64,000 nt of DNA from Antedon bifida. Its lineage: Eukaryota; Echinodermata; Crinoidea; Comatulida; Antedonidae. Location: contig OY727094.1 of NCBI GenBank assembly GCA_963402885.1, positions 498,501 to 562,500 of the forward strand, given 5' to 3'. This document shows positions 5,815 through 59,219 of this stretch, piece by piece (position 1 is the first letter of the stretch; every line of letters begins with the position of its first letter). Below the pieces are notes generated by a model, which had not been told where the DNA came from, ran no database searches, and saw only the letters and a program-made list of their open reading frames with translations. A program made the translations under genes and the position numbers.

Positions 5815-6060
5815 CTGGATACCTACTGTCACCCTTGGACACCTACTGTTGCCCTTGGATACCTACTGTTGCCCTTGGATACCTACAGTTGCTCTTGGAT
5901 ACCTACTGTTGCCCTTGGATACCTACTGTTTCCCATATATACCTACTGTTGCCCTTGGATACCTACTGTTGCCCTTGGATATCTACTGTTGCTCTTGGAT
6001 ACCTACTGTATCTCTCCCTGTCCTTAGATACTAACTGTCACCTTGGATACCTATAGTCGC
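5815..6060. repeat. 20-bp minisatellite, about 12 copies
   Basis: Unit ACCTACTGTTGCCCTTGGAT, best preserved at 5841-6010 and decayed to 6120. Two overlapping plus-strand ORFs here are artefacts of the repeat. Confidence 0.9.
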
Positions 6061-11707: not shown

Positions 11708-14700
11708 CTGTAACAAAAGTTTAAAATTAATGATAAAAAGAAAACATATAGTTATAGTAGTACAGCCAACTCTTCCAAGTATGTCTGGTTTTCCGAAAAG
11801 TCTGGTATTCGAAATGTGTTTTTATCAAGGAATTTGGGACCTTTAGGTCCCCAAGAAAAGTCTGGTATTGGGAGAGTTAACTGTATTAAACTTTAGAAAT
11901 GGGAAAAGTGATTTTTAACAACTTATATGGAAAAAATACCAATTTAAAAATTTTAATTAAATACAATAACATGGAAACCAAACATTTCTTTATACGTCTA
12001 AAAATTGACGGAAATTGAAAATATCACAACTTACAAAAAGGTTATATTTTACGAATTTCTTGCATACTACTCTAAAATTTAAATCAATTATCAATTTAAA
12101 TTCTTAAATCTACGTTGTAAAATATAATTTAATCATCGAACAATTTATGGTTTTACTTAACTTTTGATTGCAAAATGAATAAAACAATTACTTAACAATT
12201 ACTTAATGCCGATACATAAAAAATGTAATCAAAATTTATGGATATATTATTGAATAACAGCTTATGAGAATGTATATGAATCAAATACTAAAGCAAATCC
12301 CAATGGTATTGAAACAATTACATAGAAGACATACAATCGCAGGATACAATTTGGATTCTTATATATCCGTCAATTGTATAATTTCAAGTTTGAGAATCTA
12401 TACCTTGAGAATGACAAGATTGAACCAGATACTTTGGGATTGAAAGCAAATTTTTAAACCACGTATTCAAATCATTTCATTCAAATATCGCTAGTGTGCA
12501 AAAAAATGTTTAAAAAATTACAGAAATTGATATTTGAAGAGTAAAAACAAAGCAGGCTAAATTTAAAGAAATATATGCTGCCCTGAAACTTTAACTCAAA
12601 GGAATGTAAAGGAAAACAATGTTGATGAAGTGTGTTGTACTGCATGTAATTTTCATTAAAAAACAAAACAAAATTGTACTGTGTATTTTGCCATTTCTAA
12701 ACAAAGTTAAATGTATAGTTTACACAAAATACTTGTATTTCTTTGTTTTGTTAGCTATTATAATTATATTACTATTTGGACACACCTTTATTACGAAGGA
12801 GTGCCTGTGACAAAAAAATGTGCCCATATATGGACACGATTATGTTGAGCATTATCACTACCATATTTGAGCATATCACTACCATATTTGAGCATATCAC
12901 TACCATATTTGAGCATATCACTACCATATTTGAGCATATCACTACCATATTTGAGCATATCACTACCATATTTGAGCATATCACTACCATATTTGAGCAT
13001 ATCACTACCATATTTGAGCATATCACTACCATATTTGAGCATATCACTACCATATTACTATTTAGACACACCTTTACAACAAAGGAGTGCCAATAAAATG
13101 AAGAATGAAAGTATTTATTTTTATTTCATCGTTTTTGTTTTTATTTATTATTTTATGTAGTAAATTGTATTAGTTTAAATGTATGTGTATTGTTTCTGGG
13201 GTCTTTCTCGAGACAAGAAACTTGATTTCTTCTAGAGAAGACCCTAAATGATGGCTTATTACTATGTTTTTCATTTATGTACACACCTATATATTATACT
13301 GTATAATGCCATTGTTGAACAAATAAATGTTTTTTGAACTGAACTGAACAGATGGCAATTAAATATTGTTATTATCTATTATTCCCACAATGCCTACTAG
13401 TACTACCACCACTGTGAGAAAATGACATGTTTCTATTGTAGTGTTATAAACAATATATAACAATATATAACAATATATAACAATATATAACAATATATAA
13501 CAATATATTGTTTGAAGGTTTGCATGGCGAAATCGAATGTTGATATAAAGTTTGCAGTACACCACACACTGAAAAGTTCAACAGTTCTTTTCAGTAACTA
13601 ATACACGTGGTGTACCGCAAACTTTATATCAATATATAACAATAAAAACAACCTTGACAAAAATACTGTTTTTGTTATTTATAGCCTGGCTTTATAAATT
13701 GATAAATTAATAAATATGGGTTGATATGATTAAATATACCTATAAAATATACATAAATGTTTAATATCCTTATAAAATATACATAAATGTTTAATAAATG
13801 CTGATGAATATACTTATAAACTGAACGAATCAATTTGATTCAATAAAAGATGTAGTCAATCCAAATTATATTGAATATATTAAAAGTAATGACATAAGCT
13901 TTGAAACGCCGTACTTAATTAATGAAACTAAACAGAAGCCAGCGACTATGAAATGTTGAAACCAAAAGCTTCTCCTTCTTGTTAACTTATACAAATTAAT
14001 CAGGTGAAATTGTGTGAGTAAATGATAATTAATAGATTGATTTACTTCAGCGCTACAAGGATAGTGTTGGTCCATTTGGGGTTTGTAACGATCAGTAATT
14101 TATGCCGGTGTAATCTTTTGGGATTTAGTCTATGAGTGAATTTGGTCTGGGTAATAGTAGAAGTTAACCACAGCTATGCCAATACACACAAGTCATAGGC
14201 AATCAATATAAATAAAATTGCTTGAAATATCAATGTTATATTAAGGAATTATTACTACTGGTACAATCCTGGTGTAGCAATTGGAGCTACAAATGGATAA
14301 ATTATCTCAATATTTATTTTAAAAATAATTTTGATATTGAAAATGTGTGTAGTTGGTCGCTTTTATAGATGCTTTAATTGTAGAACGTTTTTTTTTTTTT
14401 TTTGGTTTTTTTTTTGTCTCTTTCTGTGCTCTGTTCTGGGTTGAACAACTAGCATAGGTGTTTAGCACCTGTTGGGTCTTTTCTTGCCTTTTATATTTGT
14501 TTTGTCTTCTTTGTATTGTATATGACAGAAAACTGAATAAATAAAATAAATGGTACCGTAAAAATGCTCATCTTGATATAATCTGGGATTGAACTATGGT
14601 ACAGTTCTATTTACTTTCATGTTTAGTTTAGTGTATAGTCCAACTATACTCAAATGAACTATACTCAAATGAAGATGTTTGCGATATATAGTATTTATTT

Positions 14701-17700
14701 TCATATTTATATATTTGGACTTATTATTTTTGTTCTCTTTGTTATGACTATGGATGTGAATTTCCGAATTAAAAGATGAATTATACCAAATCACCACCCC
14801 CATACTCACGACTAACATTCATTCGTCAAACCCCGCATCCTTATTATGACATGCCTTCTAAAATCTATGCATACATTACCATTACCATCATTTACCTATC
14901 ACCTCGAAAATCAAGAAAATCATTTTACCTATCAAATCTACTACACAAAACAATATTTACATGCCTAAAAATAGTAGAAATGTGACGTACATGGATGTCA
15001 CCAAAAAAAAAAAAATTTTTTACATACATTGCCATCTGGTGGATATGGACAAAATTAAAATCTATAAATAGAGATGACTAAGAGGTTTTACTGGTTTAAA
15101 TAAAAGTAGTTTACTATTCAGTTAAAAAAAATGAAGCCCAAATATAAAATGTATGTATAACAGCTTTATCCAGCTATCATTCTTGTATACCGTACAAGAG
15201 TGATTTTTATTAAGCTCTGTCCACACTAATATGGTGGTGATATGCCCAAACATGGTAGTGATATGACATCATCATGCCCATATATGGGCACATCACATTT
15301 TGTTGCATAAAGTTTGATAGTGTAGACAAAGCCTTAGTTTGTATTTATCTGTTTTTGTATCTCAGAGCAAACATGATTTCTATGTATATGCTAAAATGCA
15401 AATGACAATAAATGGAAGTAATTTTCCACTAATGAATGAATGTAAATTCTAACTCATTTTAATATTCTAACTCATCCAAAGCAAATAGTAAACCAGGATT
15501 CACTCTAAAAACAGTAGCTATAAATGAATGACTTTATATTTACATTACATATTTTATTGGAATCCATAAAGAAGAAATCAGACAAATATCTATGATTGCG
15601 TGCAGAGAAAAGATAAAATAATCTAAAAGTAGGACACAGAAAAATAGAGAAGCTCAGGATTTACCATAATAATTAATTACTTACACAGCACTAAGTAAAC
15701 CCAACAACTTTTTTGCTTGTTTTACATTTCAATTAATTTAATTGAAGAATATATTATGTTCAAATACCAGCCAGAATTAAACAAGGTAAACTAATAAATA
15801 AAAATAACACATCTTGTGAATTTCAATCTTTTTCTTCAACATGGAGTCATTCTGGTTTTACTGTATTTAATATAAAGTTCAATTTCATACATATTAATTT
15901 TTAATGATGTATGTTTTTGTAATCAATCGTTATTAAATATGCTGTGTGGTTTTATAAGCACTTTGGTGTTGAACTCAAAATGGAGCTGTAACTTGGTCAT
16001 GAACTGTACTTCCCATCAAATCCTGTGCCGGTTTCAGCCCAGACTTAGGCTATGTTCAGACCCATGGCGTTAGACCGTTTTAGCGTACAACGTTACTAAC
16101 AAGGTCACATTACAAACGGCAGAGAAAAAAATGAGGTGTTCAGACCCATAGCGTACGATTATCGTTACAACGGAAGTGCGTCATTCAGGTTGGTTCTAGT
16201 TGCATATTCATGTGCTCTTACCCACGTGTTTAGGCCTAGATCTCAGCCCTACAATTATGACAAAACTTGCCGTAAATAAAACATACCTCAGCATTTATTT
16301 AAGAAAAATATAGTAAAGCCAAATTTCTCTTTCTATTGTTTTATTTTGTAGTAAAAAACATTTTTCCCAAGCTCTGGCGTTACGAAAATAAAGCAGGCCT
16401 CCTAATGATGAAGATGGAGATTGTGTTAACCACATGGGTGGAAAAAATTGATTGTGATTACCAGTCAGTTAAAAAAAACCCCTTAACTTGCTAATAAACC
16501 CCTAAACTTGTCCAGTCTAGTCTGCCTTGTGTATATGAATGAGTGACTTGATGTCCCACCACGCTAGTTTTTAGCTTGAATGAAATGCGTGAATGGCTCT
16601 CAGCTTGGCCTAGGCCTAAAAGGGGACGGGATCGTAGTCACTATGTTTAAATACAAGGTGAATTTATTTATGTCATTTGTTAGAAAATATAATGGTAATC
16701 AATTGATACATGTAGTTTGTAGCTTAGTTTTTTTTAACAGTTGTATTTTTAGCCTAGTTAGGCCTTATTTATTCTGGCCTTTTTGTTGTTGAAATCCATC
16801 TCTCACACGACGATACAAGATGTCAGCCTAGGTCAAACCTTGTTTCGCGTCATAACAGGAAACGTTCTGATTGGATACAACGTTGACTTACAGTAGCGTC
16901 GTACGCTAAAACGGTACTATCAACCGTTTTCCACTACAACGCTACAACCGTTGTACAACGCGTTGTACGCTAATCCCCAACTGTTCAGACACACATTCTT
17001 TTAGCGTCGTACGCTAAAACGGTCTAACGCCATGGGTCTGAACAGGGCCTTAGTGCAAATAACTCACAACTCTTTCTACTCAAATGAGACTACAACCTTT
17101 ATGTGACAAAAAAAAAAATGTGATGTGCCCATATGAACATGATTTCATATCACTACCATATATGGACACTTTTTTTTGTCAAACTAGTTTAATAGTGTAA
17201 ACAGAGCTTTAGTTTATAAGCATGATAAATTATAGTTTATCCATGTTAAGAAAATATTGACAGAATATGTCAGTTTAGTACTACAAGACCTGGCGCGTTG
17301 TTAGACAAACATTACTGATGTGTATTTAGTATTATACCAATGATGCTATAAATAACTAACACTAACTAACACTAACTAACCATATTCAGTTAGATTTAGA
17401 TTTAGAACTACAAGACCTGATGCGTTGTTAGACAAACATTACTGATGTGTATTTAGTATGATACCAATGATGCTATAAATAACTAACACTAACACTAACT
17501 AACCATATTCAGTTAGATTTAGATTTAGTACTACAAGACCTGGTGCGTTGTTAGACAAACATTACTGATGTGTATTTAGTATGATACCAATGATGCTATA
17601 AATAACTAACACTAACTAACACTAACTAACCAATTCAGATTCAAATGTATTTATGATATGTAGACATTCATCTAATGTATGTTATTCTGAAATATTGGTT

Positions 17701-23700: not shown

Positions 23701-26700
23701 ATAGGAAATTACAATTCTCATCCTATTTTTTACGACAGACACATATTTGGATGTCAACACCAAGTGTATTTATTTGTATGGGTGCTCTAGATATGAAAGG
23801 TCTTCATTTTTTTAACTTCTACACTTACTGTAAATCATGCTCATAATGTGTCTACTGACCTACTTATGTGATATAACTGCACCTATGTCACACTTATTTA
23901 TTGTTTATAAATTTATTCATAATTTAAATTTCATTAATTCTATAGCATGATGACAGTAATTAAAGTGGCGTCTTTAATATTATTGGATATAGTTTGGTAA
24001 TTATTGAAATATACATACAGGGATTCATTACTTGAAAAAACAGAAAAAGAATTATTTAAATTTAAAGATGTATTGTCCCCCAAAAACATGAAAAATGAAG
24101 ATTAATAAAATAACACTTTGAATAGGCCATTTTGTAGTTTTAACAAACTTAATAATTTCCATAGAAAAAAACTAAAAAAAAAATATCTTTACTTATAAAA
24201 TGACAAAATAAACGGTTAAATTCAACCAATTTGACTATTTTTTGCTCTAAATTACAGTTTTTTTAAGTAAATACATTTTTTTTCGATCCAATTTTTGGTC
24301 AAAGTGGATAACTATTAGGTGACATTAAAATGGCCTATTAAAAAAAAATGTTTAAGAATTATTTTTTAGGGAGACAATACATCTTTAAGTAGAGTACACT
24401 ACGTAAAGTAATTGATATTTACTGCAGAACATGTTAATAACTGACAAAAAGTTTCATTTTGCTGGATAATTAATAATAGTAATAATGGAATGAGGAAAAG
24501 ATTAAGGTCAAGGTGAGGTCAAGGGCAAACTGTAAATCTTATAAAACAGCTTGCAAAAAACATTTTGTGAGAAGCGTGTACGTAATTAAAAAGTAATCTG
24601 TCACCTGTACGCCACTTGCAACAAACATTAACTACTGTATGTTCTTAGTCATGCTTGAGACACAGTTCCATTTGATGGATAATCACAGAAGAACATTATT
24701 TGGGTGGATGCAATAAAATGGGGGGGGGGGGGGGGACACAAAATGTTAATCCAATAGAAACAATATTTTTGTGTAGTCGAAAACACTTTATAAACAGTAG
24801 TTTGGGTGATATAGAGAGTTCCATAACAGAGGGGGACAAAGATTTTACTAGCCAATGAAAACAATCATTGTTGTGTAGTAGAAAATATTTTTTAAACAGT
24901 AGTTTGGGTGATATAGAGAGTGCCATAACAGAGGGGGACAAATATTTTACTAGCCAATGAAAACAATCATTGTTGTGTACATTGTTGTGTAGTCAAAATA
25001 TTTGTTAACATTAGTTTGGGTGATATAGAGGGTGCCATAACAGAGGGGACAAAGGTGTCCATCCACGGGTATTTGGACAATGATTTTGTTTGTTTGTGTT
25101 TACCTTCTCCTCTAGCTGTTGCTTCTGCTCTGTTAAATCTGAAATCTGCTGCAAATTTTCTGATATTTTAGCATGATCGTTTGATGCCTGAAATGAATCA
25201 TAAATTAATATTTATTTTATTAATAAAAAAAAGTCAAGTTTAACTGCATGTATATCCTCTTATTTTCATTTGATTTCTTGTATGTATTCTAAGTTGCAGT
25301 CACTCACATAAAACTTAGCAATATAAAGCTCTGTCTACACTATCAAACTTTATGTGATGTGGGTATATTACTACCATATTTGGGCACATCACACTTTTCT
25401 CGTCAAACTAGTTTGATAGTGTAGACAGAGCTTTATACACAATAAACATAAAATAGAAACTAATCCAATACCTGGAATACGAAGGATTTATGTTTCTTAA
25501 GAAGTTCATTAAAATCTTCATCTTGGTCATCAATTCTTGACTGCAACTCATTGTTCTCACGATTTAAACGAGATACTTTCTCTTCAGACTAAAAATAAAC
25601 ACAATTAATCAAAACACTTAAATCATAAATCATTAGGTATATTAGACTTGTCGCTAACAACTTGCTGAAACTCAAAGATCTACTCGTAACTGCTCGGATA
25701 GGGACAGCGAGTAGTTTAAGGAGCTAGCTCTCATCAAAAGACCAATAGGTGTATGCGACTGGTCATTTTCGAGCTGCTGAAACAGCTTGCAAAAGATTTA
25801 CTAGTAACTGCTCGGATAGGGACATTGAGGAATTCAAGGAGTTAGATCTTCTTAAAACAGACCCGTAAAAGTTTAAATATAACACTTTTTCATGTATAAA
25901 GGTAAAACTGTCCTGTCTGAAATTTCTATTACCATATATAGCAAATAGATTTTCTATATTACAATCTCTAAAAGGTAAATTATATATTGAAATAATGAAT
26001 TACATAATTTACAATAATCTATTATTTATTCTAATAATTCAACTTGCAGAATTAACATTTGAATTAATCACACTAATAATTCTTGCTAAATGTTCTTGCT
26101 CAAAGCTAATGTGTCTAGTAGCAACAATTATTAAATAAAATGATCATGTATATGTTATTGCCCCGAGCTATTCATTTCGAGTCAGCATCTAAAATCGAGA
26201 CTTACTTCAGATTTAGCCCGTAAGGCATCGTCAAGTTGGGACTGAATATCGGCAAGTTCCGTCTCAATACTTTGACGAGCTTTCACAGCTGATATGACAG
26301 TGTATTGCGTGTCTTCCAGCTAAAATGAAACATTCATGTTTTAAGTCAACTGCAGGTCACAGGATTAATTGATATTAACATACAATAAGTCATAAAAGTA
26401 ACTTAAGTAATAATGCATGATGCTAAAAGCTAGTCTAAGGAATTAAAATATTGTTTGAAGGTTAGCGTGGCGAAATCAATATTTCCCTTATATTCCCAGT
26501 TTCCTGGACTTTCTACATTCTCACTCCTGAGGACGATCGAAAGGTCGGGAAACTTCTTTCTCTTTTCAGAACTATATACATGTGGTGTACCACAAACTTT
26601 GTAAAAGGAATTTGTTTGTTTTACCATTTAATATTACTACAAGCATATGCTATCATTGCATTTAAAAAAAAAATAATTGTGCTCAATAGGCTAATTTTTA

Positions 26701-29700: not shown

Positions 29701-32700
29701 ATGCTGGATCTAAGATCAACATAGTTTTTGACTAATAAGCTCAATGCATTCAGGTCAGTTTAGCATAAAATGTACTTTGGTCGGTTGGATCACATCTGAG
29801 AGCCTCAAAATGCATAAATAAATGTATCAAATGCGAAGGCAGTATATTTTGAGGTTACTGTTAGCATAGACATATCAAAGTATTTAATGATCTATGCTGT
29901 TAATATTATCTATATATTTATTCTTTTCCAACCAACAGGAGGAAGCCCAAACAAACAATACACATTGAATAATACACAAATTATACTAAATGAATAATAA
30001 TATTATTACAAACATACGGTAAGTAACAAAACATTGTAAACATTTTTAATTATTAAAATAAAAAACACCTTGGCAGCATCACTCAATATTGTCATTATAA
30101 TTATTATCTTAAATTATGGTTGTGTTGTGGAAATTATTATTATGGGATGTACCTGTTGTAGCATTTGAATCTCGCCAGCTTGTTCGTCAAGCTCCTCTTC
30201 TTGATCTTGAACTTTGGCCTCAAGGTCACGCCTCGCTTTCTTCAACACCAGGACGTCCTTTTCATCTTTACTTCCGTGACTTGATGCATCGTTTAATTCT
30301 GATTGTAGATTTTCCATCAATGTTTCTTTAATGGATACCTCTGATTTCACATCCTTTAATAATTAAAACAAACATACACTTTTCACTATTTAACAATGCA
30401 TCATTGTTATACATTTTATGTCTATTTATAAATGTTAAGCCCTGTCTACACTATCAAACTAGTTTGGAAAAAAAAAATTGTGATGTACTAAAATATGGTA
30501 GTGATATGATTAAATATGGTAGTGATATGACATCATCATGTCCATATATGGGCACATCAGATTTGTTAGTGTAGACAGAGCTTTAGAAATGTATACAGGT
30601 ATTATAATTTTATAGATAATTGTGACGACTATGTTATTGTAAATTGGGAATTTCTAAGATTTTTGTATTTGAGATTTTAAACCTGTGTTTTTAAAGATTA
30701 TCCCCTCATTTTTAAAAAATATTACATTTATAAAGATCACATTTCTTTAGGGGTGAAAAACTACAGATTTCTACGAAGAAGATTCACAATACAGTATGGA
30801 GTTAATAAATTATTTGGCAAGTGAGGTTAATCATTCTCTTATATCATCCAGTAAGCAATCCCAACGGCATAGGATAAAATATAAGCTGCACTAAGTGATG
30901 CATTTTTCAGGCAAAGAAACTTTAATGTACAAATCATGTCGCATCGCAGCTTGAACTTGGCATTAGCAAATGGCTAACTTGGGACATTATAAATTTATTC
31001 CTTAAATTCCCCTGCAGCAAATAGTAAAACAACATGGTTGTTCACGTTACTACACATTATAATTAGTAGAGAAGAATTAATTCATACGTTGTGGAATCTG
31101 TACCAAGTAATGCAGCTCTAATATTCGCAATGTTATATAAATCAGTAATTCCAATAAAAGTTTATATCGTGATATAAACGTGGATCTCGAGTACACCAGC
31201 AGTGAACTGATACTAAGTATCTGTCAATGATGGCCATGTGCCCTCAGAAGATGATGGCTACAAGAACAGTTACAGTAACCAACTATACAATTCTGGCTGC
31301 CAATTTGCCAAATATAAATAAATAAAACAATGAAAAAAACACAACTTGAATCAACTTAGTGTTACATTCAAGAACCACATACTGTGACAATAAATGTTTA
31401 CAAAAATGAAAGTGGGCCGGATTTGTACGTGACATTTTCTTGTCATTGTTCTTTTTTTAAACCTTATTATTATTCAATTTTATTTTCATAAGATACATCA
31501 TTATGTAATAACATGAGAGTTTTTATTACGTTTCATTGTTGTTATAGACTATGTTGCTATCTTTTCTGCAATTGAAGGAAATAAATGTATATTTTGATTT
31601 GATTTGATCTATATGCATTATCAACAAATGTATTTCATTTAAATTGTATTGAAGAATTCAAGGTCTTGGAATGTAATCCTCAAAGCTTCTTGCTAACTAA
31701 CCTCAAGTTCCTGCTTAACATGATAATTTTCTGATTGTAAAATATCTCTTTCACGCTGCAATCTTTCTCGTTGAGTTTTTTCTTTTTGTGCATCTGCATG
31801 TACTTTGTGCAGTTCATTATCAAACCTAGTATTAACACAAGGGTGAATTTAATGAATGAAATAAATATAACAGAAATTGACAGCAAATATATTAGCCATT
31901 TACAGTTTCATTAAAAAAGATAACTGGCTTGTACTGCAGCTTTTTTTGCAATATATCATTAAAGAAGGTAGTTGTATGTGTAAAACATCTTAACCACCAA
32001 GCTACAACCTCACTCACGCAATTCAGTGGCGTAATGCAGAGGCTTGAGACCCCTGGTTTAGGCAATCTAAGTGACCCTCCAAGTTCCAACGCTGGAGGCC
32101 TCAGGCGTTTTTTTAGCCTTTTCGGCATATTTTTTTTTCCTCTGGGCACTGCTCATTCTCCCCCTATAAGCCCCGGGGCCCCCTGGGTTTAGCCAGTGAG
32201 CGCTCATAGCCGTTATGCCACTCACTCAATTCAACTCTGACCTTTGGTCTGAACAACCACTGAGCTACTGAATGAAACACCTACTTTCTTTGTTTTTTCT
32301 CCAGTTCATTGTTTCTTGCTTGCTGACTCTCCAAGTGAAGATGTAAGTCTTGTGCTTCTCGTACTTGCTTCTGATTCTTCTTCTTTAGTGTTTGCACCTG
32401 TTTCTTCCAATCATCAATGTCACCGTTTGCTTCTATTAACTATAAAACAGACGTCAACTTAATCAACTTTAAAGCCAAAAGTGAATTCACTATCCAGGGC
32501 TCTCACCAGCAGGAGTACTGGTAATTCCTTTTGTTTTTGTGGTTTTTAGTTTTCATTCTGGAAAATACTGTACTAGACTTAGCCTACTCAAGACAAACAT
32601 ATACAGCAGATGCTCTACATAGACGAAGTTAGCTAGTCTTTTGGAGATAAATTGTTTTCATCATGAGATAAAAGACATTTGACAGGATTTGAACCAGGAC

Positions 32701-35700: not shown

Positions 35701-38700
35701 TGTTGTACCAAGACAGCATCACACCAATAAATGCTAAATAGACCTCATTTGATATTTGGGGTACAACCCCACTTGAAGTTAGTAGGCCTAAAGGAGGTGA
35801 TATGTGTTTAGAGCCGAGTAATATAAACAAATTACTATGGTTACTACTAAACACACAGATATCAGCTTAAAATTCCAGAAATTCTTACGGGCAAAACCTA
35901 GCTAGGTACATCACAAAGGAGAATCCAATAAAATCGTTCTACAGTAGGCTAGATGACATAAAATCCAGAAATATTCACTATAAACTCTCAGTACCAGATA
36001 TAAACAAACAATTTACTCATAGAACATAAGACATTCTTCTGAAGGCAAAATAAACCTAGGGCATCAGTTCAAATATACATGAGTAAATCCAGAAATATTC
36101 ACTATAAACTCTCTGTACCAGATATAAACCAAAACTTTTCTTCTAGACCATGGACAATTCTTCTAAATGCAAAATAAACCTCAGTCAGTTCAAATATATA
36201 TGAATAAATCCAAAATGCAAATATCATAAAACAAACAGATCTATAGGACTATGTAGAATAAGTACAACAATGTTGTGTGGTAGACAATTATGGTATAATG
36301 GCAACCTGTACTATGCAATCTGTTGCAGGCATTACAGAACACAAAACAATATGATTGATAATGGTGTAATTAAATCATACATCTATGCTAACTCAATTTA
36401 AGTACAGCAGCACCTATTGATACCTATTGATAATTAGTCAATTATCTACTAATAAATTAGAATAATTAACTACTAAGATTGAATGTATCAACTTTAAGAA
36501 AGGATTAACAATAAAGACTCCAAATATAGTAAGGTAGATGTATTCATTTGCTATACATTGGTTTGTCTAAAGATGCTGTGTACTAGTTCTTGTTAATTAG
36601 CTTTATTTTACCACAAATCTAACAAAAGGTGTGCATGATGTAAACTATAATTCAAATGGAGAAATAGGTTAGGTGTAAGAAAGATAATCCAAATATAATC
36701 GATTTAAAAGCTAGAAATCCAGAAATATTGCCAAATTCTCAGTAACAAATGTAAGCAAAAAAATGATAATTAGCCTAGTAGAACCTAGGGCATAAAGCCA
36801 AATGAAGTAAAAGGGGAAACAACTCCTAATCAATGAATACTGACTTGTTAAAGTATGTACATATTAAAACATGTAAAAGCCTGTGAATATAATATCTTAC
36901 AATAATCCTACCAACATAACACAAATCATGTACAAATCATGTAGGTTTATTTCTTCTCAAATGCTGTCGATGAAATCATTTAAAAAAAATAAAAACAAAA
37001 ACTGAATATTCTCCTAAATTATAAACCTACTACTATAATTGGACAAACCAAACCCTTCTCAGACAGTATACTTAAGTTTTGCTTTCTCTTCCATTGATAT
37101 CCTTAAGTGCTAAGTAACTTGTATTTATATGTTGTAACAATTGTTCCTATTGATCTTGTTGAAGAGCTAAGTGTTTACTTTAACAATTACTTTTTCCAGG
37201 GTTTATGCTAATTTATTGATTCTGTAGTTACTTAGTTGATAGTGCTTAACATTTAAGTTTTCCTCTTGGAAAGCCTATTTATACTCAATTTTATTTTGTT
37301 AATGTTCTAAAATTTTACAACATGAAAATAACATTACTAAACTAGAAAAAACCAAACAATATACTATATACATAAAATTGTTTTACAGTCTCTTTGGAGA
37401 TTCTAAAATCTAATAAAATATCAATATTAAACTCCAACAAAGTTCTTGCGCATTACTTAAAAAACTTAAATAATTCTAGACAAACCTAATAAATGGTATC
37501 CACACTTCAAAGCAACCTGTTTGTACTACATTCCTTGTCTTGGTTAGAATAAGAACATGGACAACATTGAAGAAAGGACTCTACTAAAGAGAGACTTCTC
37601 AAAGTACTACTAAGTACAGTAGCAATACCAGAAGCACACTATTAAGTAACTTGAGCTAGTAACTTAAGCCAGGGAGGTACTATTAAATTCAGGTTTATAC
37701 TATGCATGTTAAATTACCAAATAATTACCTCCTCCTTGACTTAGATATTTTACTCAATGATAAACATGTGCAACAGTTTATACTATATTTCTTTGAAAAT
37801 CTGATATATTCCTCTTTTAGAAACTTAGATAATGAAATTACAATACTTATTGAATTAAGTGGCTGACTTGAATAATTACCAATTTTGATAATTTGGTGTT
37901 GAATACACAAATAAAATAAAACAAAGAATGTGGTATATAAATTACCAATATAATATTACTACTAAAGTATAACTTCAATGGTAATGAGGAACCAGCATGA
38001 GAGACTGTGAAAGACCTAGAGAGAAATGGCATGAAAAATTACCCCTAAAGCTCTGTCTACACTATCAAACTTTATGTTACCAAAAATGATACACATGATG
38101 ATGTCATATCACTACCATATTTGGGCACATCACACTTTTTTTGTCAAACTAGTTTGATAGAGTAGATAGAGCTTAAGCAATTGCGATATAACCTGGCTAA
38201 AAACAGCACAACATAAACAGTTATGGAGTGAACCTGGAGAGGCCCTCACCTTTCACTTATTATGTTTGTTTTGGTAGAACATTGGGTTACAGAATGTGTT
38301 CTAAATGTAAATCGATTAGATTGATACTCGTTCAGTACAATTAAGTATATTTTATAGAGGGAGCAATACATTGAGAAATTGCCTCTGTGGTAAAATAAAA
38401 GTATGCATAGATATCCACTAGGATGTCTGCATTGCATAATCCTATTATATTAAAATGCAGTTGCCAAGGACATTACCAAGAATGCGTCAATTTTAACGAT
38501 TATAAACTTTAATATCAGAAAGTGCGGATTATAAAATTGTGCTGTGATTAACATCAAGGATGCAGAAGCAAGGGTTAATGACCTTTAAACTATTAAACAC
38601 TGAAAGGTTAATGAACTGTGAAATGCCAGGGTAAAGTCATGTGATCTAATAAGAACTACAAATTGCAGTTTGAATTACAAGTTCAATTACTAATGGGTAT

Positions 38701-41700: not shown

Positions 41701-44700
41701 CTTGACCAGATGTACGAATCTAACAATAGGAGACAAATTTTAAATTTTTAGGAAGGAATATTATTATTAAAAGTTTCAAGATGTTTTAAAACATACTCTT
41801 TCTTGTGTAAAATAGCTTTGTAACTGCAATTAGATGTTGCACATACAGCACATAATTTTAATTTATTGTATTAAATATTTTGAGTATTGTGTACATCTTA
41901 AGTAGAGACTTACTGATTGCTGTCTGTCTATCATTTCAACCATTGCAGCTGGAGTTGACTCTTTCTCATCAAATCCCAAGTCAATGTTTTCCTGAAAACA
42001 AATCAACATTAAGAATTAAGAATGAAAAGAAAAAGGAACTCTAATGCAACACAAACTGATACTGATATTTGCATCGATAGTATGTGTTTTATTAATAAAT
42101 ACCATAAATCTTCTAATAGTAACCCACACTCTATAAGCCAATCTATAATAATAACCCACTACTCTAATAGTAACCCCCCTTCTAACCCACCCTAAAAAAC
42201 AATCAAAGAATAATAACCCTAGGTTACAATTAGAAGATTTATGGTAGTTTAAAGTATAGTGTTGTTGATCACTGGGAAGAAGTCTCAAGCTGGCTACACT
42301 ATCAAACTTTGTGAGCCAAAATATATGGACATGATGATGTCCATATATCACTACCATATTTAAGCATATCACTACCATATTTGGGCACATCATTTTTTGG
42401 AGCTTTACTTAATTGAGTTTCAAGTTACCTGTGCATATCTGTCATGTTGAGAAGTGAATGTTGATTCATGAAACAAAAGCTGCAAACGCTCTTGCGCATA
42501 GTTGCTAAACAAATCCTGCAGGTTGGCACCTTCATTGCGACCCACTGATGTAGGGTTCTGGAACCCACATGAGTCCAACACAAGTATAGAAGCTACTGTA
42601 CGGTATGTAGTTGATAATTTCCTGCAAAAATGAAAAACTAGGTTGTTGAGGTTTGTAAACTCAGTGAATTTAATAATAGTCAGATAGTTAAAATGACAGC
42701 CTCAAATTTAGTGTAGACTAACTCAAGTTTTTACAAAAAATAACCAAAAACCTTTAGTTAAGTTAGTGTTATGTTAAGCTCTGTCTACACTATCAAACTT
42801 TTTGTGAAAAAAAATGTGATATATATATTATATATGGACATGATGACGGCATATCAGTACCATATTTGGGCACATCACACTTTTTTTGTCAAAGTAGTTT
42901 GATAGTGTAGACAGAGATTTAGGCTTCCCTGACATTTGTTGCATTTCTATGATATTTTGTGTACTAAAGAATGTATTTAACAAATTCTTGCTCTTTTTAT
43001 TTGATACTCACTTGTTAATCATGGACACAAGAGCATTGACACATTCCTGATAAAGACCAACCGCCATTCCTTGAAGAGCTTCTATTGCTGAAGAATTACT
43101 GCCATCACCAGATGGTGACTCCCTGCCTTCTGTGATATTCCTAGCCAATGGACTTCTTGTTGGGGTTCCTCCTATTCTGGGGTTAAAACAAGCTCTTGCT
43201 AACTCCTCCAGTGACGATCCGAGGATACTAGCAGCTTTTTGGGCTTCAACGGGCCTAGCAAACTGTGAACGTACACTCCCTGCTCCTAAAGGTTAAAGGT
43301 TAACAATGTTACTATAATGTTATTTTAATTTATTAGTATTGCAACACTTAATGCAAACACAAGTTATTTGAGAGAATTCAAAACACTGTTTTTGTTTTAT
43401 ATATATTGACTAATTGCCAAGGATAAAAATAAGCAAATTCATTCACTATCCTCCTTAAAGGTGGCAATCCTGTTCACAAGACAAACATTAAACTCAAGAT
43501 GCTCTACATAAACAAAAGTCTTTTGGAGTGGAGTTAAATTGAGGAATTGAGTGAGGAAGTATATCCCAATGTGCCTGCATGAACAAAACAAATTAACATG
43601 ACCTAGTAACCAGTTCCAAAGTGCCACAAATCAAACCTCTATATTACTTTGTAAATCATCTGTGATTACCTTTCATTGCCCCTGCAGCCCCCAGGTGTAT
43701 AATAGCAGCCACAACACTCCACAATGCTCTACACTCCTCTGATGTAAAGCCCAGAACTTGACAAGCATTCTGTATCTTGTTCCACCCATTCAAAGCAAGC
43801 TGCTTATCCTCAAACTAAATAAATAAATATAAACAGACAATGTCATTTTTGGGAAGTATTTTTGAAATAAGAATTAGCTAAATAATTCCATTAACTGCTT
43901 TATCAATACGGTTCGACTAAAAATGGAATACATTTAATTTTTACTGAATTAGTTTTTTACCTTTTCAATGCTGAAACACAAATATTTACATGAAAACACA
44001 CATAACAAACTACTGATTGAACCAGTATGTTCAATTTACTAAACAAATACCAATTATAAATTGTTTTCAATATATGCTAATTAAACTGAAATATGTTTTG
44101 AATGCTAATCTGATCAGATCAGTGTAAATCTCAACCGTGCCATTTGAATAGACATTTATTATTTAGAGTCTAATATATTCTATTTCCATCAAAACAATAT
44201 GAATTATAGATAAACTGAATATATAAGTGAATCTGATGGAAAATATGAAACGAGACAGTACTTTGTGAAAGTACTACTGCCTTACAAGATAGAGATAAGC
44301 AAGTCTTTTGACACTGATCATAAGTCTATACAAAAATAGTTATAAATTGTGAATAATACATTTAGAACCAGAATAAAGGGGACACCTTTGGGACACAAAC
44401 AAAGTGTGCTCTTAATAGGACTGTCGTCTGAATAGGAGTGTACCAAAGGTTTTACTATATTTTATCTTACTCACCTTGCAATTCATGAAGTAGTTCTGGT
44501 CAGAAACTTGACCAAGATGAAGTTCTTTTCTGTGTAAAAAAACAGAACAAAACAATAAAATTCATCTATTTATGGTGTGACTGCAGAAACATTAATAGGA
44601 ACTTGGAATCCCTACAGAAACTCCATTTTTACTTGTGATTTAAATGTGATGTGTCCATATATGGACATGATGATGTGATAACACTACCATATTCGGGCAT

Positions 44701-47700
44701 ATCACTACCATATTTGGGCACATCACACTTTTTTTGTCAAACCAGTTTAATAGTGTAGACAAAGCATAGTATATTACAAATGTTGTGAGGTGTTTTCCCA
44801 AATGAATAATGAACAACTATAAAAGATTAAGCTGACTATATTACTTCAAGACTGTGTCTGCTCCTGCCAACAATTGATAGAATATATTAAATGTTGGTTC
44901 ATCTTCTGGTCGTCTCACTACACGGTATTTCTCTAACATCAAGATCTACAGAAACAATTACAACATGTTGTATTCAGATATTTTATTCTCAAAAGATATG
45001 GAAATACAATTGTTTAAATGTCATACACATCCAAACAGTGAAGTGAGTTTACAACTCTGACACTAATTCAGGACTTAAGCCAGGACCTTAGGTTTGAAAG
45101 GCAAGCATGTTAACCACCAACATTAACTACAACAATTTCAGTGACAAGTATTTAAGAGTGCTTGTCACCAAAAATCAGACATATTCGTAATTTAGTGGCA
45201 AGGGTCAACATTTCGAATTGGCTCATATTTTGCACATTGGTAGACCTTGATGTAAGTAAACCTGATGTGTAGTTTGTTTGGTAAAATATCGCTTAGTTTT
45301 CGAGAAAATCGAAAAATAACGATTTTCGGCCAATTTTGTTAATTTTTGGTGTATAATTTACATTAAGTTTAACAGCCTCTGGAAGCCAAACGTAGCTACC
45401 TAGCGTTTAAATATTTTACACTTATGTTAACTAGCATCTTGACAATAATTAAGTAAAGTTTCAAAAAATTTGATGAAATTCTAAGATTTTTACTAATTAA
45501 TTACTAATTAGCATATATAAAACTCTTAAAAAGTAGGGTAAAAACAAACGCGTTTTTTTTCATGTGCGACGAATTTTTTTTTAATAAAAAAATCATCAAT
45601 CTAAAGTTTAGATACTAATATTTATGAATCAAGTAAAAAAAATTTGGGGAAACTTATTTGCGCTCCGCGCCAGAGCCACAAATTTGTAAGAAATTCAAAG
45701 ATTTTATCTGTCGGCAAGATCAATCGGATGTACCTATTGTTCTCTATTTACATATTTAAGGTAAATTTTACTATGAGAAACAAACTTTAAAGGTAAACTG
45801 AAAGGTCCTGAATAATTTGGATTTACGTTTTAATATAAACACAAACTAAAAATAAATTTCTAGTAAAATTTAAACGACTAACCCATGATGAAATTAAGCA
45901 ATTACTATCTGAGCTCAACATTATAACTCGCTTAGCTTCATCAAGCCTGTTATGTTTTCCACAAGGTGAATTTATTCTCGCGAATTGAACATTTTTTGCA
46001 TGCGCAGTTTATTTTTATCAACAACGTGTTCCATTGGGCGTGCGCGTATACGCGAAAATGTTTGATTTGCGCGAATAATTTCGCCTAGTGGAAAACAGGC
46101 TTTACAACATAATTTTCTTATCTTCTCATATAGGGAGTTTTCGCACGAGCACGTTAACGCTATTTTCCAAGCTCCGCCCACTTTGTAAACAACTTGATCT
46201 GTGCGTGCGCAAGCATTACGAAAAACTTTAGTTACGTGCGTCGAGAACCTTATTTCTGAAAAATAGCGTCAATGAAAAACGTTAACCAAAACATGATTAA
46301 ACATGCCTGGCTAGGCTTAGTCTCTAAACCCAAGGTATTCCGTGATTTGTTTTAATACTTGTGGCGTATGTTGCGTGCGCTACACATGTGTTGCGTTCTA
46401 CACTTCCCGTCGAAGCGCGAAATCAAAACGAGCAAGTACATTAACGCAAATGTTCGCTGAACTCTGTTGTTATGCAAATGAGTAGAATGGTGACAACCGT
46501 TAACGTTCATGTGCTCGTGCGAAATTTCCTAATAATTCGTGGCCTAAACAATAAATTATTGTTTTACCATTGTTTCACCCCTTCGCTTTATTAAAAATTT
46601 ACAGAACGCGACTTAAAATACTAACAATTTAGACAACAGAATCATCCCACATATTAAATTGTTATTTTAAAGAATTCTCACAGACACAGTTTTACCTTCG
46701 CTGCTACCTTAATCAATCGAGCAACTGCACGTGGAAACCAGCTTTCCCAGCAAATCAATGTATGGCTTCTTGCGCTTTATGGTTATATCTGTGGTATCAA
46801 GTTCAAGAGAAGTACACATTTCTTGCAACATTGACAAAGAGAATTTGGAGAGCTTTTCTTGAGCTTTCAGTTCACAAATATTATGCCTTTCAAACATTAT
46901 TGGATGCTGCAAGCCTATTGTGTCCAGTACGGTTTGCGACAAAATTTGAATTTCTCTTTCTTTTTCCGTTTTTGAATCGTCTCCATTTTCTTGGACTTCG
47001 TCACCATCTTCATTACTATCGTAATCATCATCTTCGTCATCATCATCATCATCATGAACGGCTGCATCTGTCCTCCTTTTTTTAGCTAAGCGTGAGAAAA
47101 AACTTGCAATCTGCTGTGCTGTTAAAAATTCACTCTTGCTAAATAGATCCGATCTCATCTCTCGTGAGACATCACATGGATCAGCTTTCTGTCCTGTCTG
47201 CTCTCCAACGTCAAAAACATCAATAAGGTAGGTTTTCTGTGGAACAGAAAATCGGGTTTTTTTTGCAGAGGACTTTAACGCCCAGCCCATTTGCAGGTCG
47301 GGGCCAATGTCAAACCGTGGCAAATCGTTGGTTCTTGTTGGTTCTGGATTTTTAGAAGTACCCTCTTCTAGTTGTGTTGCGTATAATTTCATTGCCCTGT
47401 CATATAGTGTTTCATGTTCTAGTGCGTTCTTGTGATTTTCATAATCTAAGTGTTTCTCTAGGGAAGAGTATCTCTGATATGACCTAATGCAACCTTGTTC
47501 GCGACAAAAGAACAGTTTGCTGGGGGTGCCAGGACTTTCTTCACTTTCTATTTGTTCGTCGTCATTTATATCAGCTTGTTCTTCATGAGATGTCTTGGCT
47601 TGTATTCTTGCTTTTACTGTAATAAATGATACTTGATTTTGATCAGACGTTGTATCCTTGTTATGAATTAAATTGGGTAGTTTCGAGGGCACACAGAATT

Positions 47701-50700
47701 TACTCAAAAGTAGATTTTGTCCTGCACCAATACCATACGCCATCCACACCTTCATGGACCTGTTTCCGTACTCTATGTTGTTGATGTGACTCACGCCTTT
47801 CCATTTCCCTGCTGCACAAATAGTACCAGTAGGTAAAGCACAAACTATGACTTTCACTCCAGGAATGCCTCCAAAGGACTCAATTGCTGCCTTCATCTGC
47901 TCTGGATTTTCAATATCTTTTCCTGAATTAAGATATTTATTCATGTGATTTTTGATATGGGCTGCCTTGCGGTCACATGCGCCCTTCCCCCCTTGAGGGT
48001 CCGAAAAATCAATACGTCGGATTTTGATCTTCGTTTCTTTCGCTATCTTTGGTAACGAGAGTAATGTTAGGGCAGAGTGGTAGCATCCTGCATTATCTTG
48101 ACGCAGATACACAGAGTGTATATCGGGTGCAATAGATGGCAGCTGCCTCAACACATCGTCGATGATTGCCACAACAGTAGTACTATCCTGACTGCAAGAT
48201 TTAAAAATATGCACAAACGTAAGCATCTGTACCTCTCTATCTTTATTCTTTTTCGTCAAGACCGTTATGTGCCACGGAAGTCCACGCTTTCCAAACCAGT
48301 CTCTTTGGCTTTCGCGGTATTTACGTGGTACAAACTTCATCGCCCAGTCTAAAACAATTAGGGCACAACCAGGATTCAAATCTCCTAAAATATTATGTCG
48401 TGCAGCGTCTTGGTTAATGGATCTTAAGATATGCGCCTTCCACGTCTCGATGTCTTGGACTGACCGTGTAATTACGTACTCCATGTCATCTTTTTCTTCA
48501 GAAGAGCAGCGCACTTCGTTTAAAGCTTCAAGAATTTCAGACAAAGCTTCTGGAAATATACGACATCTGTCACATCTTGCATTGTGGTCATGATCACAGA
48601 CAGTGGTAATATTTGTCTTCGCAAGAACTAAGAGCATACGCCCTACAATGATCGGCAACTTCAGAATGGTTAGAAATGTGAATCTGCAATAATATATAAA
48701 AGGAATTGTATAAAAAATGTAATTAGTCTTGAATGTTTCTTACATGCTTTACTGAGCAACATACAACGCGCTACTTTGCCTTTTTTATTATATTGTTTTT
48801 CTATTTATACTGTAGCAGTTATCAAGATATTTAAACAAGATTGTTATTACCTTATAGTCACCTTTTAGGTAGCGCTTGGCATCTTTAAGTTTTTGGTTTG
48901 TTTGTTTGGCCCAAGTCAAACCCATTTCATAGCAATCTCCCAGCTTATCAACGATGTTCTCCAGGTCATCGAAGGCTTTTCCACCATTGGCAGAGATATA
49001 ATCAAGGCCCTGTAAGGATTTGCGTACAGAAGCAGAACAAACACTGAGAACTCTACGCAATGTACTGCGGCTCATAGGTTGAAAATTCTTCTCTTGACAG
49101 TAACTCTCGTATTGAAGAATACATTGTTCTGGGATAAGATTACGCACAACATTTGGGATTTTTATAACTCTGTCTGTAGAAAGTTTTAGAGTTTTTTCTC
49201 CAAATGGCAAGTCTTGTATAACTTGAGAACTTGTTATAAAGGTAACAAAGTGGTCAATTTTCCCTGGCTGTACGCATACTCTAGTGTTCTTTAGAGGTTG
49301 AATTACAGAACCTCTACCATGTAACAATAAATGGTGTTTGGCCACGTTAAAACGGTATCTAGTCAAGTTAGGTATCCATTTCTGCAGTTCCTTGAAGGTA
49401 ACCTTATCAACCATGATCGATAAAATCTGACGTCTTGTACTCCAGTGGTTAGTATGAAGATAGCATTCTGATAGAGCATCTAATAGAGAAGAATCGGTTC
49501 TTTCGTCAGCTTCTGTGGTTTTATCACTTGATAAGCCTTCAAGTAGAGTAGTCGACTGACCAGGTGCGATTTCTTCCAGGCACATAGAGACAACTTGACG
49601 AGCCTTGCGCATGTGGAAACGTTTAGTACGGTCTGAAACTTGCTCCAGCGGTGCAGATAAAGGATATCTAATTGGACTGACGTCCCTTGAATTGAGAAAT
49701 GCATTTAATTTTTCTCTTGGTGTAGATTGAATTGATTCATCTTCTGAGGTAGCTGAAGCAAAAGTTGGATCGCAAAATTGATATAGGCTCATTTGAGTAT
49801 CCATAACATCACACGCCGGTGTTTGACAAGTTGGAGTGGCTAATGGCATGTAAAACTAATCCTTATTACTTTCCTGAAAATAAGAATAATATTGGTAAAA
49901 AATTACTACTGACTTTGATTCAATTATTGACGCACTGATTCGTGATATATATAAAATTATGATGACAATGGCAGGGAATGCAGAAAATATTCCTCCTACC
50001 ACCAACATACGAAAAAAAATGAACAAAGTAACATGAAACACATTATTTACTTAATCTTTCCGCCAATAAATGCGTATTCATAAATGTCATACTGTACGGT
50101 ATTTTTTAACTTACAGTTGTTAGTGCGCTCATCTGATCGACGAGACTAGGGTTATTTGTTTCAGTGTTCGAGGTTACAGGTAACAATGACTTCAGCATCT
50201 TACGGCAAGTTGAACAGATACCTGATAAAAAGAGTAAAAACATTTACTTACAGGGTTTTGTTTAACAGTTTAAATTACATTAAATATATAAAAATAAAAA
50301 AATTAAATTATATTTACCTGAACCAACTTGCAGGAAAGTTCCTGTTTTCTTTAATATTAGTTGCGAATCTTCTTTGCTAATACCCCTATCGCACTTGGGT
50401 CCCTTTCCTTTGCTTTGGATGTGATTAGAGAGATCAGGCGGCACTCTACATCTGTTGTTATTTCCTCGAGACCAACCTAAGCCAAGTTCCGATCGATGCA
50501 AGGGACAAACAGTCCAACTATGTATATCAGCGGGCAAGGTAAACATGGCTGCTCGACTAAGAATTAGGTCTACCTCACTATCGATGCCCGTAAACCTAAA
50601 CATGTGTCTGTGTGCAGCGATTTCCTTCTGGCATGCTTGTAAAGGTAGGACTTCAGTGCTCTGTTTGCGGTCTTTTCTATCGAATCCACAAGCTCCGTCA

Positions 50701-53700
50701 ACAACCGATTTAAAAGAACATGAAATCTCCATCTTGTTTGAACTTAAAGCCATCAGACAATAAGTATATATAAAAATTATTTTCAACACGTCTTTACATT
50801 GTAAGACATAAACTAAAATGGATAACAAATCATTTCCGTTGTCAACGCCAATGAAGATATCGTTGTCTATCGAATATATGCAGTAAAGTGTTTTGTCTAC
50901 TGTGGTTAATGTTTTGAAACATTCTCGTTGAGTAAGTTCGACCAGGTTCGACAAACAGGAAAACGATAACAAGTTAAAACAAATGTGTTTTTCAGTTTTA
51001 TCCTATAAACTATGAGAGGATGGAATAATTTATAATAATGTGGTTTGACAAAGAATAAGCGAGTGATTTTTAGTTACTTGCTTAATTTTGTATATTGATT
51101 AGTAATTGAAATTTTACCAGAAACGTATTTTTAGTTTGTGTTTAAATTGCAACTTAATTCAAAATTATTCCAGGAACTTTCAGTTTATCTTTCAATTTTG
51201 TTTCGCGTAATAAAAGTTTAGCTCAAAGCGACTTAGATTGCTAAATAGATAACAATAGGTACATCTGATTGATCTTGCCGACAGATAAAATCTTTGAATT
51301 TCTTACAACTTTGTGGCTCTGGCGCGGAGCGCAAAATAGTTTCCCCAAATTTGTTTTACTTGATTCATAAATATTAGTATCTAAACTTTAGATTGATGAT
51401 TTTTTTATTTTAAAAAAATTCGTCGCACATGAAAAAAAACGCGTTTGTTTTTAACCTACTTTTTAAGAGTTTTATATATGCTAATTAGTAATTAATTAGT
51501 AAAAATCTTAAAATTTCATTAAATTTTTTGAAACTTTACTAAATTATTGTCAAGATGCTAGTTAACGTAAGTGTAAAATATTAAAACGCTAGGTTGCTAC
51601 ATTTGGCTTCCAGAGGCTGTTAAACTTAATGTAAATTATACACCAAAAATTAACAAAATTGGCCGAAAATCGTTATTTTTCGATTTTCTCGAAAACTAAG
51701 CGATATTTTACCAAACAAACTACACATCAGGTTTACTTACATCAAGGTCTACCAATGTGCAAAATATGAGACAATTCGAAATTTTGACCCTTGCCACCTA
51801 ATGTTTGATTTTTAGTGACTGGCTCTCTTAAACAATAGTACCTAGGTTTATTTATTTGAGCAAATAAATTTTAAAAAATTGTAGCATTTTAAAAATAATA
51901 ATTGTAAAAGTACCTGAACTGAACCAGCTGCAATTTGACCAGAGTAGTCATAATCCAACGAGGTCACTTGGGCAAAACGTGTAGCGTTTGAATTCTGAAT
52001 AGTTCTGGCATTTCCAAATGCCTCCAATAATGTTGAAACAGCTTGCATTTTATCAGCTAACAAATAACAAAAAACAGTAAGTGATTGAAGAAATGGTTCA
52101 TAGAAACCAAAATTAACAGAATGGTAAAAGAGATTTTGGAACCTTTTGGACCTCAATCAAGGTTTGGTTTTAGGAGAATTTTAGGTTTTTAAAGTCTGGT
52201 ATTGGGAATGTTGACTGTACTCTACAAGTACGATTTTGGGGGAACAAGGACGAAAAGGGGAGGATCTTTCCATGTGTTATTGCTTTTGCAATAATTTAAT
52301 TTGCACAATTTTTTTTAATTTTTATTGTTGATATATTAAGATATTTATTGATATGCTATATTGTCCAGCAGGTTGACACATATGCTATGTTCTGCTTAGT
52401 AAGAGGATTCACAGGCTCTTGTCATAGGGATTTAGTTCCCTTTTGTGTTTCCTGCCACTTACTTTGTAGTTGTTTGTTTGATAGACAATAAAGAATAAAA
52501 GACAAGGTCTTAATTTATAGTAATACCTGTTACTACATTATTAACCGTTCCAGCAGCATTAGCCAGGTAGCCTATGACATGTTTAGCATTTGTAGATTTC
52601 CCGCTGCCACTTTGCCCCATGAAAATAATGGACTGGTCCATTCGTGATGTAAGCATGTTCTTGTAGGCCGTCTGAGCAGTTGCGTAAATGTGTGGGGGCA
52701 TGTCCTCTGGTTTGCACCCCTTAAACATCTGAAGAACCTATAGTAAGGCAACAAAAAGTGGTTATATTTTTTTTCAATATATATTTAACAATTCATTCTT
52801 CAAATATTAAATGACTTTGAAACGGATACAATTAACGTGATTTGATTTGAACATTGAATTGCTGTTTCTCATCATTTTATCTTACTTATATAAAAATACT
52901 TACAAAATGTTATTACTATTACTATTACAAACAACTGACATAACTGACACAATTTTTACTGGATATTATTTCACGAAAACAGTAAGATTAAAGTGCAAAG
53001 GGAATCATGTGTTTTAATTAATTAGGTAACTTTACTAATAAATTTAAACAAATGTTAATCAAATAGATGAATATAAAGAAAAGTATTAGTTAGGTTGAGT
53101 CAAAGTATTTAAACTAAAGCTCTGTCCACACTATCAAACTTTATGTGACAAAAAATATGATGTGCTCATATATGGATATGACGATGTCATATCACTACCA
53201 TATTTGGGCATATCACTACCATATTTGGGCATATCACTACTATATTTGAGCATATCACTACCATATTTGGGCACACACTAGACAGAGCTTTATTCATTCA
53301 CTACACATACTGTTTGACAGTTAATTACATACTTGACTTTAGAACCGTTTCTTTTAATGACTTATAGAATGGAATCTTTAAGAGAGTTGATAACGTTGTC
53401 TCATGGGGAATCATACAGTTTTAAACAAATGAGGCTTAACTTCACAAGCAAGTAATGACTAGTATTGAGTATCTGTCTCCCGATCTGTCTCTATAGCTTT
53501 GAATTAAAATTACTTTAATATTTCATTAATAGAGTGCGCTGATAATTGTAGTGCTTTAGTTAGATAAAAAATGATACAACAGAAGACAGATATAAATCCA
53601 AATGCATCTATATCAACCTTGAACAACAAATAACTAATCATCGTCTGACGAAGATCTGATGGTATCAGATCGAAACGTAACAGTACTGTTGGCTTACTTT

Positions 53701-58100: not shown

Positions 58101-59219
58101 ATTGTGATTTTAGATTAAAAACCATCAAAACACAGAATTTAACGGTTGAATGAATGATGAATAAATGAGGGAGAAGAAAAGACAACATAGGAATAACCAG
58201 GTCATTGTTTCTTGGCTTGAGTACAGAACTAGCTTGAGACTGCATAGAACGATTGGTGTGAGGTCGATTGGTGTGTGAGGTCGATTGGTGTGTGAGGTCG
58301 ATTGGTGTGTGAGGTTGATTAGTGTGTGAGGTTGATTAGTGTGTGAGGTTGATTAGTGTGTGTGAGGTCGATTGGTATGTGAGGTCGATTGGTGTGCGAG
58401 GTCGATTGGTGTGCGAGGTCGATTGGTGTGTGATGTCGATTGGTGTGTGAGGTCGATTGGTGTGTGAGGTCGATTGGTGTGTGAGGTCGATTGGTGTGTG
58501 ATGTTGATTGGTGTGCGAGGTCGATTGGTGTGTGATGTCGGGTGTTGGTGGTGGTAAGGAAGGGGTCAGGAAAGGAATGTTGATCTCTACACCTACATCT
58601 TTCTATTACATTTTTAGTCCAAGCTTTACCTTACAAAGAAATACTAAAAGTATTGAACTGACGTTGACCTAGTGACCTAAATCTCACCGGGTTCACGCAT
58701 CCTGCTACTGTACCACCCACAGTAACTTTTTCTAAAACCAAATAGATTTCCTAATCCTGGCTTTACAGTACTTTGTAAGACTGACTGTATAGCTATGCAT
58801 AGAGAAAAAAATAATATTGTTTAAATATCAATCATCATCAGCATATGTCTGCAAAGACTGTAAAATTAATATTGTATTAAAGTCAGTGTACTATGAAGTA
58901 GAATAGATTTTGGTTTTTTTAATCTTTAAGTTTTCTTAAGTTTTACTGTTTCTTTAGGTTTTAAACTGAATCACTACTGAGTAGTAGCAAGTACAACAAA
59001 GTGCAAAAGGTCATACTGTAGCATTACACTGTAGCATGATGAATGTGCAGAATCATGTCCTGAATCATGTACACCCATAACATAGTTTTGAAAGAAATTG
59101 TCCAATACTTCCCTTTGCCTGAGTAAATACAACAGCATAGCCATGATGAATGTACATTTCGATTTATTTTAATATTGAGAGCCTTTGGAACACAAGTCAC
59201 AGCAGAAAGTGGAACCTAC
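55117..59219. other. Upstream intron (if the 59220 exon is real) or 5' flank
   Basis: No exon recognised. Contains a GATGA/ACAATGATG simple-repeat zone (55490-55620), a T run with an AT-rich stretch (56064-56100) and the 17-bp minisatellite at 58251-58541. Confidence 0.5.
58251..58541. repeat. 17-bp minisatellite, about 17 copies
   Basis: Unit GAGGTCGATTGGTGTGT with variants (GTTGATTAGTGTGT, ATGTCGATTGGTGTGT, GTGCGAGG). Variants are clustered, so local duplications can be read from the order. Confidence 0.9.

Follow-up and report, generated by a model that had tools for sequence, protein, structure and literature searches.

A long-armed element inside a myosin intron

We analysed a 64,000-nucleotide stretch of the Antedon bifida genome (hereafter the window), in which a DNA transposon of 6672 bp, spanning positions 45156-51827, lies within an intron of a myosin gene. 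The tetranucleotide TTAA stands immediately outside both ends (45152-45155 on the left and 51828-51831 on the right), as read from the sequence and from the genomic survey of ends described below. These boundaries agree to the base with those given, together with the flanking TTAA, in an earlier note on this DNA. The element is bounded by two terminal inverted repeats (TIRs), at 45156-45907 on the plus strand, delimited by the alignment of the arms and by matches in the genome, and at 51071-51827 on the minus strand, delimited by the arm alignment. Each arm is about 750 bp long, slightly more than the roughly 715 bp claimed before, and the arms align with 91.8% identity across 732 alignment columns (45192-45907 against 51071-51801). 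Their core, 571 nt without gaps, is 96% identical (45190-45760 against 51232-51802), and the arms reach the element ends with a small gap. Read inward, the left terminus starts with GAGTGC and the right with GAGAGC. The left arm begins GAGTGCTTGTCACC, the right end read inward is GAGAGCCAGTCACT, and the right arm as written ends in ...GGCTCTC. The inverted match of the real region scores 1003 bits, whereas the best one after shuffling the 9-kb region 50 times by dinucleotides reached 45 bits (24 nt), so the TIRs are far above chance expectation.

Immediately inward of the left arm, on the 3' side of the transposase gene, are two internal inverted repeats, at 45953-46097 and 46129-46534 (43 nt at 84% and 34 nt at 79% identity, respectively).

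Near-identical copies in the same genome

We searched the window's own genome (315.6 Mb in 27 contigs, with the window at C7:498501-562500) with the core of the left arm, a count of copies that the earlier note had proposed. The search returned at least 40 scored matches from 101 candidates. We examined 29 copies, namely 28 fetched loci and the window, and aligned 26 of them end to end; L011 and L014 were left out since only the left end was in the fetched stretch, and L036 since one arm is shortened. Pairwise identity among the aligned copies averages 99.4% (range 98.7-100%). The window copy is 98.9-99.5% identical to the other 25, no difference separates L009 from L012 across the aligned element, and the 25-bp flanks differ between copies. 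Terminal inverted repeats and the same end points are found across many copies, as in cut-and-paste (TIR) elements. Because more than two dozen copies are near-identical and some of them carry an unbroken transposase gene, the family has moved recently, and we conclude with high confidence that the window element belongs to a family of cut-and-paste DNA transposons with recent activity.

Fragments of older, decayed copies at roughly 64-93% identity also occur in this genome, as does a much older one at C8:19458335-19458751, which carries four stops and matches at 39% across 133 residues; the lineage was therefore resident there before. Separately, five left ends on the same strand fall within about 30 kb at C12:20791323-20820719, every one preceded by TTAA and departing from the pattern at one or two bases; no right end was matched in that stretch. 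The cluster may reflect decayed copies that were amplified locally.

TTAA is the duplicated target

To survey the ends, we used a pattern for either end that tolerated two mismatches and left the preceding four bases free, except that a leading G counted as one mismatch. The pattern found 89 element ends in the genome, and a reversed control pattern gave one match. Copies ending at different points, copies lacking TTAA and a merely local inversion had been named in the earlier note as outcomes at odds with a transposon; the survey instead showed fixed boundaries, with TTAA before 85 of the 89 ends. The other four are preceded by TCAA (two, on both sides of L026), CTTT (one) and GAAA (one). TTAA itself occupies 1.2% of window positions. 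The 85 TTAA ends, and L026 with TCAA on both sides, are consistent with a target-site duplication of fixed length.

Two copies, L015 and L025, are lodged in another repeat, uninterrupted relatives of which are found in the genome. Nine alignments span a junction: three for L015, four for L025 (two of them the same place under two identifiers) and one each for L028 and L029. The last two were not counted as empty sites, L028 being a self-match with the element end and L029 being gapped at the junction. When the flanks of L015 are joined, they align directly across the junction to three uninterrupted relatives (79-81% identity), of which two carry a single TTAA at that point and the third TTAG. 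Because two of these three relatives carry TTAA once, TTAA is the duplicated target and lies outside the element proper. The relatives of L025 do not show this, reading TTAG (98% identity), TAAA (95%) and GTAG (76%, the place found twice); with TTAA missing from their sites, the direct proof of duplication rests on L015.

The same evidence bears on the suggestion that the structure is a local segmental inversion that mimics a transposon. Long, near-identical inverted arms would be expected of such an inversion as well, but 89 ends spread genome-wide with identical boundaries, unlike flanks and empty-site relatives rule it out, leaving it a vanishingly small probability.

One spliced transposase gene, broken in the window copy

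Between the arms lies one spliced gene on the minus strand, which we modelled from open frames and splice borders as four exons. Exon 1 (50318-50753) holds the proposed start codon at 50751-50753; it measures 436 nt in 23 of the 26 aligned copies, its length being altered in L026, L028 and L030, and its GT donor is present in all 26. Exon 2 (50115-50221), with a CxxC motif recognised by eye, is 107 nt long with AG and GT borders and an open frame in every aligned copy. Exon 3 (48851-49873) contains, in the window copy, an in-frame stop near its start. Exon 4 (46709-48683), which is frame-shifted in the window copy, holds the candidate D-D-D region, a C2H2 finger and an Asp-rich tract. The splice borders are GT/AG throughout in the window copy; the border preceding exon 4 is not AG in three of the 26 copies (L033-L035), as a result of an internal deletion.

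In ten of the 26 copies the spliced frame is unbroken and encodes 1185-1187 amino acids. Variant codons among these ten comprise 19 synonymous and 18 non-synonymous changes, and the resulting rate ratio of 0.26 points to selection on the predicted transposase protein, with the reservation that the numbers are small and that intactness was the condition of entry. In the window copy codon 187 is a stop, and the coding length does not divide by three, so that the whole transposase can no longer be made from it. The earlier description of a complete-looking transposon thus holds for the structure (ends, TIRs and TTAA) and fails for the coding part. Likewise, of the claimed multi-exon gene encoding zinc-finger and Asp-rich proteins, the several exons stand, while both parts belong to one protein, whose gene is broken in this copy.

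Protein features and domain searches

By eye, the putative transposase shows, besides the C2H2 finger and the Asp-rich tract, a Cys/His cluster at its N-terminal end and three candidate catalytic residues, D635, D719 and D760, spaced by 83 and 40 residues. The setting and spacing of these aspartates, judged by eye, would fit the D-D-D triad of an RNase H-like fold. Two points weigh against this assignment: fold and triad are read by eye, since no transposase family was matched, and the intact copies differ too little for conserved residues to stand out.

A hidden Markov model search against protein families, which the earlier note had also suggested, matched no DDE transposase family: with the whole 1185-residue protein of L009, Pfam gave nothing up to E 10. 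The pieces of the window protein yielded only Pfam rows under the curated cut-offs and no DDE family (Pro-NT_NN, RNA_pol_Rpc4, PBP1_TM and TFIIF_beta, E >= 0.15), and a 98-residue frame at 45972-46268 gave sub-threshold RIFIN (E 0.011) and Transposase_22 (E 0.088). Nothing convincing was found for the protein in NCBIfam and PHROGs (best E 0.033), and searches of Rfam and of phage records likewise yielded nothing convincing. Among PDB sequences, the best match was the C2H2 finger of ZNF410 (E 0.0037, exon 4 region), followed by pICln (E 0.037) over a region with the acidic tract, the remainder being at E >= 1.3; the catalytic core alone matched unrelated proteins only (E 0.3 and 0.53). Scans of viral contigs and prokaryotic genomes, which are sensitive to close relatives only, found no relative, as expected because this is an animal transposon. 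Four viral contigs picked up by short-motif matches (L038-L041) were rejected, with no tblastn match below E 0.30.

A pattern search gave 39 matches, 37 of them the family's own sequence, against one for the control. The outlying match on C16 (L037) was rejected as a relative and read as chance: tblastn aligned 50 residues at 30% (E 0.002) after preselection by the pattern, and the match lies in a short frame adjoining a host zinc-finger open reading frame. The second outlying match is at C9:8307062. The neighbouring frame at L037:1073-2287 is open for 404 amino acids and shows, by eye, six C2H2 zinc fingers, like a host transcription factor.

Probable movement of defective copies

Two sets of copies have lesions in common. 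L033, L034 and L035 share an internal deletion and are 99.98-100% identical, and L016 and L017 share a frame-shifting lesion at 99.99% identity. Within each set the 400-bp flanks have no mutual match, indicative of unrelated sites. Because the same lesions are found at unrelated sites, the defective copies were most likely moved in trans, presumably by the transposase of intact copies. Since its ends match those of other copies, the window copy could be movable in the same way, a possibility that is inferred for this copy and indicated for the siblings with common lesions. In the mechanism we propose, a spliced transposase of about 1186 amino acids with an RNase H-like DDD active site would use its zinc-binding parts to bind the long inverted ends, excise the element and insert it at TTAA, which is duplicated, as the L015 site shows. 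One consideration counts against movement of this kind: the lesions common to L033-L035 or to L016 and L017 could stem from gene conversion between copies.

Superfamily assignment

Sola elements encode DDD transposases and make 4-bp target duplications, and the target of group Sola3 is TTAA; the superfamily and this group are said to have been described by Bao et al. in 2009. Sola3 agrees with the present element in its 4-bp TTAA duplication, and its DDD triad may have a counterpart in the by-eye D635/D719/D760. From these features alone we consider Sola, group Sola3, the likeliest superfamily, slightly more probable than not. A Sola-3 element is annotated in the genome of the coral Acropora, according to PMC12314368. 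Some points speak against the assignment. A full-text literature search found no statement of the Sola3 target site; one table in PMC5704228 gives AT as the target of moth Sola elements of unnamed group; and the comparison with Sola3, as with the other named superfamilies, was one of described features.

A divergent Kolobok lineage is improbable, even though several of its traits are present. The element resembles Kolobok in its TTAA duplication, purine-purine start and pyrimidine-pyrimidine end, since its GA...TC termini fit the rules in PMC9587614 (TTAA, 5'-RR...YY-3'), where the reported hosts of Kolobok include cnidarians and molluscs. It differs, however, in other traits. Kolobok usually comes with a THAP domain and an H2CH zinc finger, as stated in PMC6004289, whereas no THAP match was found on the whole L009 protein in Pfam up to E 10. 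The C/DxxH signature of Kolobok occurs four times in the protein, at 83, 318, 553 and 1039, but not between the proposed second and third acidic residues (719 and 760), and the proposed third residue is D and not E, both differences depending on the by-eye triad. In addition, the full-length Xenopus Kolobok elements of PMC6004289 begin with AG, while the present element begins with GA.

The TTAA target would equally suit piggyBac, and the duplication is common to both. The terminal bases differ, since the element ends in GAG and not in the CCC listed for piggyBac in the PMC5704228 table, and the whole protein lacks any Pfam match, the piggyBac DDE domain included; on these two results piggyBac is rejected as very unlikely.

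The earlier note had raised the prospect of an undescribed or poorly described lineage. An undescribed DDE/D superfamily of this sort would be TTAA-specific, with very long TIRs and a multi-exon transposase that has a Cys/His domain at the N terminus and a C2H2 finger at the C terminus. It would be favoured by the results from Pfam, NCBIfam, PHROGs and PDB sequences, which apart from the zinc finger contain no convincing match, and by the lack of a relative on viral or prokaryotic contigs in scans that reach close relatives only. Yet the collections searched are not eukaryotic transposon libraries, where a relative would be expected, and a group already described, Sola3, would account for both TTAA and DDD. 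The missing transposase match is weak evidence of novelty because the libraries searched are not known to hold a Sola model. An undescribed lineage is therefore not shown, and we hold it unlikely, if a shade less so than Kolobok. The same low probability applies to the fuller version, an undescribed TTAA-specific DDD superfamily with arms of about 750 bp, a four-exon zinc-binding transposase of about 1186 amino acids and intact and defective copies that may still be moving. Our conclusion is that this is a new family of TTAA DNA transposons, of a kind already known, recently active and well delimited, with Sola3 as its candidate superfamily group.

A family that combines near-identical copies with open genes, clean ends and empty-site relatives offers a practical path to a working transposase of a superfamily. 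With ten open-gene copies and fixed TTAA ends, it can be tested directly here how a little-studied kind of TTAA transposon works; apart from that, the case is one of ordinary genome biology.

Host myosin gene and other repeats in the window

The insertion lies between two myosin-head exons on the minus strand, 51914-52056 upstream and 44845-44945 downstream. Their reading frames are continuous, and when translated together they match Pfam Myosin_head (E 4e-21) as well as solved myosins, which bears out the earlier placement in a myosin-gene intron between in-frame exons; class XVIII is a proposal of the earlier note. Of the 6968 bp of the intron, the element plus one copy of TTAA accounts for everything except 292 bp. 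The transposase gene has the same orientation as the host gene.

Many occurrences of a small repeat whose ends are inverted (AAGCTCTGTCTACACTATCAAACTTT...) are scattered over the window, at sites including 44641-44760, 42848-42912, 38105-38166, 25361-25426, 30444-30564 and 53153-53248. Expanded tandem arrays of its inner 21-bp unit, CATATCACTACCATATTTGGG, occupy 12845-13056 (10 copies) and 53188-53280 (4.5 copies), much as though a miniature inverted-repeat transposable element had seeded a minisatellite. Other tandem arrays lie at 58256-58540 (17-bp unit, 16.6 copies), 5816-6009 (20-bp, 9.7 copies) and 17274-17638 (123-bp, 2.9 copies).

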